Source: Hydrocarboniclastica marina (GTDB lineage: Bacteria > Pseudomonadota > Gammaproteobacteria > Pseudomonadales > Oleiphilaceae). From it: DNA of 64,000 nucleotides. Below are positions 27 through 1,059 of the stretch, piece after piece (the first letter of the stretch is position 1; each line of letters opens with the position of its first letter). A program made the position numbers and the translations under genes. The stretch is taken from positions 2,356,001-2,420,000 of the forward strand of contig NZ_CP031093.1 of the NCBI RefSeq assembly GCF_004851605.1. The letters are read 5' to 3'. Below the pieces are notes generated by a model. It saw only the letters and a list, made by a program, of their open reading frames with translations. It was not told the DNA's origin and did no database searches.

Positions 27-42
27 AATATGGCGCGGCTGG

Positions 43-158
43 GAGGATGATTCGGCCTTTCAGGCCTCACCCCTTCGGGGCCGCCGTCGCGTTGCTCCGG
101 CGTTCGCTCCACCTGCGTTGCAGGTTCCGCGTCGAACCTCTTTCGGTTCGAATCCCAG
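43..158 (-). repeat. Hairpin-rich repeat element, copy A, in a tRNA T-arm remnant
   Basis: On the minus strand the element begins near ggattcgaac, passes gaggttcga, and ends in gaatcatcctccc followed by the tRNA-Arg acceptor end and CCA. Several small inverted repeats are visible inside (ggcct/aggcc, ccccttcgggg, acctgc/gcaggt, tcgaacc/ggttcga). The flanks gaggttcga and aatcctcc are the two halves of the tRNA-Arg T-arm, so the ~90-nt core appears to sit inside the T-loop. Copies B and C are nearly identical. The family is not identified; it resembles REP/BIME-type noncoding repeats in structure. Confidence 0.7.
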
Positions 159-172
159 ACTCCGAGTGACGT

Positions 173-209
173 AAACAATAATGCCCGCTCAAGGCGGGCA
201 TTATTGTTT
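173..209 (-). terminator. Perfect 16-bp-arm terminator palindrome
   Basis: Arms 173-188 and 194-209 are exactly complementary around a 5-nt loop (tcaag). A T-rich run (attattgttt) follows the GC stem in either direction, so the structure could work as a bidirectional intrinsic terminator. It follows the tRNA-Arg 3'-end remnant of copy B on the minus strand. Confidence 0.8.
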
Positions 210-224
210 AATATGGCGCGGCTG

Positions 225-342
225 GGAGGATTATTCGGGGCTACACCCCTCACCCCTTACGGGGCCGCCGTCGCGTTGCTCTGGCGTTCGCTCCACTTGC
301 TTCGCAAGTTCCGCGTCGAACCTCTTTTCAGTTCGAATCCCA
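225..342 (-). repeat. Hairpin-rich repeat element, copy B, in a tRNA T-arm remnant
   Basis: Same architecture as copy A: ggattcgaac, gaggttcga, hairpin core, then aatcctccc, the tRNA-Arg acceptor end and CCA. It differs from A by scattered substitutions; for example the loop-proximal hairpin near 231-250 is ggggctacacccc instead of ggcctttcaggcc, which preserves stem pairing. Retained pairing despite sequence change suggests structure matters, but two copies are too few to prove it. Confidence 0.7.
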
Positions 343-357
343 GACTCCGAGTGACGT

Positions 358-394
358 AAACAATAATGCCCGCTCAAGGCGGGCATTATTGTTT
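358..394 (-). terminator. Terminator of the tRNA-Arg/tRNA-Ser cluster
   Basis: A perfect palindrome (arms 358-373 and 379-394) identical to that at 173-209, located 4 nt beyond the CCA end of the intact tRNA-Arg at 399-475. It is the likely intrinsic terminator of the minus-strand tRNA transcript. Confidence 0.85.
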
Positions 395-398
395 AATA

Positions 399-475
399 TG
401 GCGCGGCTGGGAGGATTCGAACCTCCGACCGCCTGGTTCGTAGCCAGGTACTCTATCCAGCTGAGCTACAGCCGC
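399..475 (-). tRNA. tRNA-Arg(ACG), copy 1
   Basis: A 77-nt cloverleaf with encoded CCA. The acceptor stem gcggctg pairs with cagccgc, the D-arm is gctcagctggatagagt, the anticodon stem is cctgg/ccagg with loop ctacgaa (anticodon ACG, read as ICG), and the T-arm is ggaggttcgaatcctcc. Its sequence is very close to the E. coli argV/Y/Z/Q type. In E. coli these tRNAs also follow csrA and serV, so this is the conserved locus. The sequence matches copy 2 over the whole tRNA. Confidence 0.97.
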
Positions 476-500
476 GTGTTTGGGTGCTGAAATTGTACCG

Positions 501-557
501 GCTGACGTAGACAGGTACTTTATCCAGCCGGCCGGCGCTCCGGGGAGCTACAGCCGC
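501..557 (-). pseudogene. Decayed tRNA-Arg 5' half with altered D-arm
   Basis: On the minus strand the acceptor 5' strand (gcggctgtagctc) and part of the anticodon arm (ggtactttatccag complement) are recognisable. The D-loop carries an extra ~17 nt of GC palindromes (gctccccggagc and ccggccgg), and the T-arm and 3' acceptor strand are missing. It lies directly upstream of the intact tRNA-Arg at 399-475. A near-identical fossil occurs at 880-957. It is predicted not to be functional as a tRNA. Confidence 0.75.
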
Positions 558-616
558 GTGTCGAAAGGCTAACACGGGTAATACTATTCTGGCACGGACT
601 CTAAAGTGGTCTTAGA

Positions 617-733
617 GGGGAGGATGATTCGGCCTTTCAGGCCTCACCCCTTCGGGGCCGCCGTCGCTTCGCTCTGGCGTTCGCTCCACTTGCTTCGCAA
701 GTTCCGCGTCGAACCTCTTTTCAGTTCGAATCC
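617..733 (-). repeat. Hairpin-rich repeat element, copy C
   Basis: Third copy of the element, with the same order of internal hairpins and the same ends (ggattcgaac side and aatcatcctccc side). Unlike A and B it is not followed by the tRNA-Arg acceptor end. Instead it is flanked by the 7-bp inverted repeat agtggtc (605-611) and gaccact (738-744), with a small ctctaa/ttagag hairpin next to it. It lies between the two tRNA-Arg modules. Confidence 0.7.
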
Positions 734-789
734 TTCGGACCACTCAGTCGACCTAAGCCGATGGGTGATGCCGAATTCCTACTTCAATT

Positions 790-866
790 TGGCGCGGCTG
801 GGAGGATTCGAACCTCCGACCGCCTGGTTCGTAGCCAGGTACTCTATCCAGCTGAGCTACAGCCGC
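790..866 (-). tRNA. tRNA-Arg(ACG), copy 2
   Basis: A 77-nt cloverleaf with encoded CCA, identical to the copy at 399-475 across acceptor, D, anticodon (ACG) and T-arms. No terminator palindrome follows it, so read-through into repeat element C and the second tRNA-Arg is plausible. Exact identity of the two copies in a region full of decay suggests gene conversion or strong selection. Confidence 0.97.
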
Positions 867-879
867 GTATTGGTTTTCT

Positions 880-957
880 GGACCTGTACTGACTGCCTGG
901 TTCGTAGTCAGGTACTTTATCCAGCCGGCCGGGGCTCCGGGGAGCTACAGCCTTGCG
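880..957 (-). pseudogene. Decayed tRNA-Arg 5' half with altered D-arm, second copy
   Basis: Minus-strand remnant between tRNA-Ser and tRNA-Arg copy 2. It keeps ggctgtagctc, ggataaagtacctg and the anticodon region actacgaaccagg, but the D-loop holds the same GC-palindrome insertion seen at 501-557. After the anticodon arm the sequence drifts (cagtcagtacagg in place of cggtcggaggttcga), and there is no T-arm or acceptor 3' strand. The shared insertion shows that the two fossils descend from one event or from duplication. Confidence 0.75.
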
Positions 958-964
958 CTTTGAT

Positions 965-1059
<95 letters not shown>

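Follow-up and report, generated by a model that had tools for sequence, protein, structure and literature searches.

The first part of the window, by which we mean the whole 64,000-nt stretch of Hydrocarboniclastica marina DNA under analysis, is occupied by a minus-strand tRNA cluster adjoining csrA and an ORF read as lysC. Three copies of a short, hairpin-rich element (A, B and C) lie in this cluster, their sense strand being the minus strand, as it is for both tRNA-Arg(ACG) genes and for tRNA-Ser(GCT). In the list below, RF00391 is the Rfam family RtT, and R1 is a covariance model that we built from the window copies and their relatives. The R1 scores of the window copies are consequently inflated, and RF00391 provides the independent test of these copies.

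31-170, minus strand: copy A, a tRNA-linked repeat (TLR/RtT) with 5' arm, hairpins and borrowed tRNA-Arg 3' end (RF00391 at 179-31, 33.1 bits; R1 at 38-160)
214-355, minus strand: copy B, the TLR nearest the tRNA-Arg at 399-475 (RF00391 at 364-214, 27.2 bits; R1 at 221-345)
610-750, minus strand: copy C, a TLR between the two tRNA-Arg genes, its tRNA 3' end lost (RF00391 at 750-610, 20.1 bits; fold)
31-48, minus strand: borrowed tRNA-Arg 3' end of copy A, 18 nt identical, ATCCTCCCAGCCGCGCCA (sequence comparison)
214-232, minus strand: borrowed tRNA-Arg 3' end of copy B, 19 nt identical (sequence comparison)
172-210, minus strand: 39-nt terminator-like palindrome of the repeat unit (inverted repeats; a partial copy at 1-27 is cut by the window edge)
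357-395, minus strand: 39-nt terminator-like palindrome directly behind the tRNA-Arg at 399-475 (inverted repeats)
399-475, minus strand: tRNA-Arg(ACG), intact, source of the borrowed 3' end (ARAGORN)
790-866, minus strand: tRNA-Arg(ACG), second and identical copy (ARAGORN and sequence)
967-1059, minus strand: tRNA-Ser(GCT), head of the tRNA cluster (ARAGORN)
506-557, minus strand: partial tRNA-Arg copy with a D-loop hairpin, CCCCGGAGCGCCGGCCGG (sequence)
889-952, minus strand: second partial tRNA-Arg copy with a D-loop hairpin (sequence)
1274-1468: csrA
1625-2866: long ORF, read as lysC

Repeat analysis of the window returned three direct repeats of 103 nt each (41-143, 225-327 and 618-720), and a genome-wide search with copy A as query recovered C at E 5.5e-42 and B at E 1.4e-36, so that the three copies reported by the first-pass annotation lie where it had placed them, far beyond chance. 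A fourth copy sits just beyond the window (G000:C1:2355857-2355977, G000 being this genome) and equals A over the 121 nt compared. A, B and this outside copy form a single tandem array of 183-185 bp units, each with a 39-nt terminator-like palindrome; A and B are a tandem duplication, not two separate insertions.

Read in the sense direction, the element runs from a 5' arm through a GAACC..GGTTC hairpin and further hairpins to ATCCTCC. The edges of the core are GAGGTTCGA on one side and, on the other, ATCCTCC in A and AATCCTCC in B. These are the two T-arm halves that the first-pass annotation had recognized. The second half continues, beyond what it described, into the tRNA-Arg 3' end including CCA, exact over 18 nt in A and 19 nt in B, after which comes a copy of the palindrome found behind the tRNA. 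Copy C retains GAGGTTCGA (709-717) and ATCCTCCC, the remainder of the tRNA-Arg 3' end is gone, and its outer stem appears, from predicted fold and sequence, to be rebuilt from GAGTGGTC and GACCACTT.

The two partial tRNA-Arg copies carry near-identical D-loop hairpins of 17-18 nt, and each lies just upstream of an intact tRNA-Arg; in another genome (G205) the same hairpin-stuffed tRNA-Arg copy runs on into a T-loop TLR core. A search for sigma-70-type promoters near copies A-C found none, so that transcription of the copies would depend on read-through.

Family membership, structure and placement

Copies A-C belong to the tRNA-linked repeats (TLRs; Rfam RtT, RF00391), a family that is known, if poorly understood, rather than undescribed. 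In Escherichia coli, the tyrT and rrn operons carry TLRs that have been on record since 1978 (Egan and Landy 1978; Rudd 1999, both as cited in PMC8144298), and the hallmark of the family is a final 18-19 nt that match the 3' end of the tRNA or rRNA upstream exactly (PMC8144298). RF00391 aligns to all three window copies end to end (positions 1-130) on the minus strand, at scores below its gathering score of 45 bits; homologues from seven genomes of the same family lie above it, with a maximum of 52.6 bits. These same-family RtT sequences align with both the window copies and the E. coli tyrT repeats. Conversely, R1 detects E. coli rrB, which lies behind 5S rRNA and outside the training set of the model, at 27.8 bits (E 4.4e-8). 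All three copies sit directly behind a stable-RNA gene on its strand, A and B behind the tRNA-Arg at 399-475 and C behind that at 790-866. A (18 nt) and B (19 nt) share the exact 3' end of the RNA in front of them, which C lacks; copy C is a TLR minus its borrowed end, and A and B are filed as TLRs.

Each unit consists of an outer stem (P1), the GAACC..GGTTC hairpin and three to four additional hairpins, the core measuring about 90 nt. Across 26 homologues, 88.5% of cells pair, falling to 35-44% when the structure is slid; 22 of 37 pairs have changes on both sides against a shuffled mean of 13.1, and the covariation score is 0.295 against 0.146 in shuffles. The early observation that stem pairing survives substitution was thus borne out, and the consensus structure is kept by covariation in an alignment that includes the E. 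coli tyrT copies. P1 pairs in 70% of cells of the 26-homologue alignment. Over 168 copies, the P1 5' arm pairs at -16.6 kcal/mol with its own 3' arm and at -12.7 kcal/mol with the 3' arms of copies at other isotypes. Short-arm pairing in copy C is worse than average, and a longer outer stem is predicted for it.

The association with tRNA ends holds widely. Among 153 copies with flanking sequence, 119 follow a same-strand tRNA or tmRNA at a distance of usually 25-70 nt, typically about 50 nt; the upstream RNAs comprise Ser, Arg, Tyr, Gln, Glu, Met, Lys, Ala, Asp, Val, Pro and Gly tRNAs and three tmRNAs. The nearest tRNA is always on the strand of the copy, orientation being fixed. Compared with the neighbouring tRNA, the copy 3' end gives a mean local score of 14.2, against 6.1 for other isotypes, and its own neighbour beats all other isotypes in 82 of 115 cases; the p-values of this test and of the P1 arm swap ignore relatedness among copies and are not used as evidence. 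In three genomes of the window's family (G001, G011, G205), copies carry 5S sequence instead of tRNA sequence. The 5S-linked copies and the 3'-end matches together make the placement rule "end of stable RNA" rather than "T-loop". Across the phylum, and mainly in Gammaproteobacteria, the P1 3' arm typically copies the 3' end of the upstream stable RNA, with a 5' arm adapted to pair with it.

By R1, 92 of 245 genomes in the order and 96 of 274 in the class carry TLRs, as does one family belonging to another class, and an exact-pattern scan of named genomes gave matches in Marinobacter, Mangrovitalea and other Gammaproteobacteria. The TLR from the other class (G577:C20:29220-29337, L287), located behind tRNA-Gln, scores 108.9 bits, above most in the window's class, and was possibly acquired by horizontal transfer. 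In G207 and G160 (L171, L179, L180), core-like hairpins occur in an unrelated palindromic repeat (CTTTGCTTACTTT..AAAGTAAG) with no tRNA near.

This genome holds eight copies at three loci by R1. At G000:C1:1844561-1844694 (L110), a fragment of tRNA-Ser holds a TLR core in its D-loop and immediately precedes an intact tRNA-Ser(GGA). At G000:C1:3793235-3793728 (L111-L113), three tandem TLRs (188 bp) follow a 3'-half fragment of tRNA-Arg(CCG), and this array is perhaps the far end of a genomic island.

Cores inside tRNA loops and the question of movement

About eight loci in other genomes show the core interrupting a near-complete tRNA gene, exactly at TTCGA^TCC; in place of the paired arm, the left flank of the core is here a nearly whole tRNA. 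The split genes are three tandem Gln and one Ser(TGA) in G399, Ser(CGA) in G513, Ser(GGA) in G115, Arg in G205 and Ser(GCT) in G540, with others of like appearance in G015 (Arg) and G051 (Ser). In the first five of these genomes (six loci), an intact tRNA with the same anticodon follows after 31-119 nt; the intact tRNA-Gln of the two outer Gln units in G399 stands beyond the next unit. A D-loop form also exists, in which 22 nt of a tRNA-Ser 5' end, preceded in some cases by a leader, run into the core upstream of the intact gene. Eight such copies were found (G000, G152, G173, two in G217, G238, G409 and G540), with a further one in G109, and in G540:C141 a single tRNA-Ser has cores in both loops. 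In the searchable literature we found no description of such a D-loop "5-prime TLR" or of a tRNA occupied in both loops.

Taken as a class, these forms suggest that the TLR core could be a module that lodges in the loops of stable-RNA gene copies, using them as a scaffold (T-loop after A58, tRNA-Ser D-loop after A21, 5S), and that has spread between them, the 5-prime TLR and both-loop forms included; we regard this as tentative and, on balance, somewhat improbable. T-loop splits would also result if the stretch from the GGTTCGA of a tRNA to the GGTTCGA of the TLR behind it were deleted, whereas the D-loop cases are unexplained by such a deletion. Because of the split-tRNA and D-loop cases, T-loop insertion is worth keeping as a minority reading. 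The T-loop as an insertion site, as first proposed, is retained only in part: the splits at TTCGA^TCC speak for it, while GGTTCGA doubles as one strand of the conserved local hairpin (GAACC..GGTTC). TTCGAA as a generic target had to be given up, since copies stand behind 5S rRNA and in tRNA-Ser D-loops without TTCGAA, and a palindromic target would permit both orientations, whereas copies always share the strand of the nearest tRNA.

A stronger version holds that the core is non-coding mobile DNA moved in trans, inserting into the T-loop after A58, the D-loop after A21 or a 5S loop, with survivors limited to those insertions that had a second intact tRNA copy. In its favour, near-complete tRNAs split at the same T-loop point are followed by an intact tRNA of the same anticodon (G399, G513, G115, G205, G540, G015, G051), D-loop copies occupy one position, each upstream of an intact tRNA-Ser, and both loops of one tRNA-Ser are filled. 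Besides, core likeness across loci of one genome is 0.68 for the same isotype and 0.55 for different isotypes, against 0.50 and 0.48 between genomes, a pattern that fits spread and that gene conversion also explains. However, the split genes can be produced by the deletion described above, orientation is fixed, and we saw neither a linked enzyme nor a clean empty site. Within the window's family, cores cluster by host tRNA, with 4 label changes against about 10 in shuffles, on a core tree whose forks are mostly unsupported and which is used for label clustering only; this mostly vertical clustering points to cores that would be inherited mostly vertically, with occasional exchange within a genome. 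Clean empty sites were sought at tRNA-Ser(GGA) in seven congeners of G040 (Marinobacter family), and none was seen: G040 and G052 have the unit, G011 has a truncated form, G046 a deletion scar, G205 and G021 have remnants, and G265 and G245 show no trace of it, homology stopping behind the terminator. Repeated loss accounts for this pattern at least as well as gain. A and B, too, are tandem duplicates. Movement in trans as first suggested is unlikely.

The check for a REP-type transposase proposed alongside that suggestion gave a single Y1_Tnp (TnpA-REP-like) protein in the genome, at C1:2529174, about 173 kb away and with no link seen; no R1 copy occurs within 100 kb of its gene in this genome. 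REP elements are dispersed intergenic copies in both orientations, whereas here eight copies at three loci are tied to tRNA sequence, and a REP/RAYT system was rejected.

The arrays might instead be by-products of unequal recombination at tRNA genes, devoid of RNA function, their structure and 3'-end identity being relics of tandem duplication. Tandem units with their terminator, deletion scars and remnants in the congeners, and copy-number variation in E. coli, where the tyrT array varies among strains from 1 to 4 annotated RtT units, are all consistent with this. It is nevertheless quite improbable in view of the covarying stems, the adaptation of P1 to each tRNA, the persistence of the family across the class and its expression in E. 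coli and Actinobacillus. Another way of explaining the duplicated tRNA 3' ends takes them for attL/attR scars of a site-specific integrative element, as the tRNA 3' ends that bracket the core look like att repeats, a segment of about 9.6 kb at tRNA-Ser(GGA) in G011:C13 (about 286.1-296 kb; L294, L085) is enclosed by an RtT core repeat (~57 nt), and three units follow the tRNA-Arg(CCG) 3' fragment in this genome. But the repeat spans the terminator and the whole unit, and a gene-less 90-nt core that recurs at many isotypes is a misfit for integrase att scars, which we rejected as hardly credible. The 9.6-kb segment of G011:C13 is possibly an island that used a TLR as its attachment site.

The proximity of csrA (1274-1468) raises yet another reading, in which the units are CsrA-binding decoys like E. 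coli RrB, an RNA that binds CsrA in vitro (PMC8144298). The csrA neighbourhood, however, belongs to the tRNA cluster, GGA is depleted in the cores (1.58 per core against 2.67 in shuffles), and among 131 P5 loops 13 read GGA and 71 GAA, so that the GGA motifs kept in the hairpin loops of CsrB-type sponges are not conserved here. A CsrA sponge was rejected on this depletion, decoys at this locus are very improbable, and a general CsrA role for TLRs is unlikely; the authors of the E. coli study predict no CsrA binding for the remaining 19 E. coli TLRs (PMC8144298).

A proposed RNA unit and its relation to known systems

Transcription and processing have been reported for E. coli TLRs, with the 3' repeat proposed as an RNase E site, and E. 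coli RrB is transcribed and processed to an sRNA (PMC8144298). RtT RNAs of Actinobacillus were detected on Northern blots (PMC4986893). Transcription and processing of the unit, shown in these other bacteria only, are predicted by analogy for H. marina. Considered jointly, our observations are probably best explained if A-C are TLRs, each providing an sRNA unit that is released from the tRNA transcript and matured at its borrowed 3' end. Polymerase that runs through the tRNA terminator would include the unit in the tRNA transcript, and the borrowed 3' end would be recognized by the enzymes that mature tRNA and 5S 3' ends, releasing a small stable RNA whose abundance would follow tRNA and rRNA transcription. 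This RNA might act by binding a protein or another RNA, CsrA being in general an unlikely target. Arrays would grow and shrink through recombination between units, and such recombination, acting at the shared GGTTCGA, may also be what splits tRNA genes.

TLRs have been without an accepted function or origin since 1978, an early claim of a stringent-response role for the tyrT TLR having later been retracted, according to the account in PMC8144298. Our census shows them to be widespread, at many tRNA isotypes, tmRNA and 5S. With an outer stem that adapts to whichever RNA end is borrowed, the question why a TLR copies its neighbour's 3' end becomes a hypothesis of RNA processing that can be tested, and the split tRNA genes give a way into the origin and movement of TLR units. 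In this sense, the array in the window represents ordinary TLR family biology and not a new transposon.

Among known systems, the E. coli TLRs, including rttR at tyrT, share with the window copies the same-strand position behind a tRNA, the 18-19 nt tRNA-identical 3' end, the tandem array (units of about 178-185 bp) and an alignable multi-hairpin core. The window copies differ from the tyrT TLRs in their host, tRNA-Arg(ACG) and not Tyr, in the terminator-like palindrome within the unit, in a larger P3 hairpin and in the loss of the tRNA 3' end from copy C. With respect to RF00391, they align over 1-130 yet score below 45. REP/BIME elements with TnpA-REP (RAYT) are, like TLRs, short non-coding repeated hairpins; TLRs are instead tied to stable-RNA genes in one orientation and not scattered in spacers. 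The RrA, RrB and RrF sRNAs of the E. coli rrn operons belong to the same family by R1 (27.8 bits), but their host is 5S rRNA and their CsrA-binding GGA loops are absent from the window copies, while their placement behind 5S recurs in three genomes of the window's own family.
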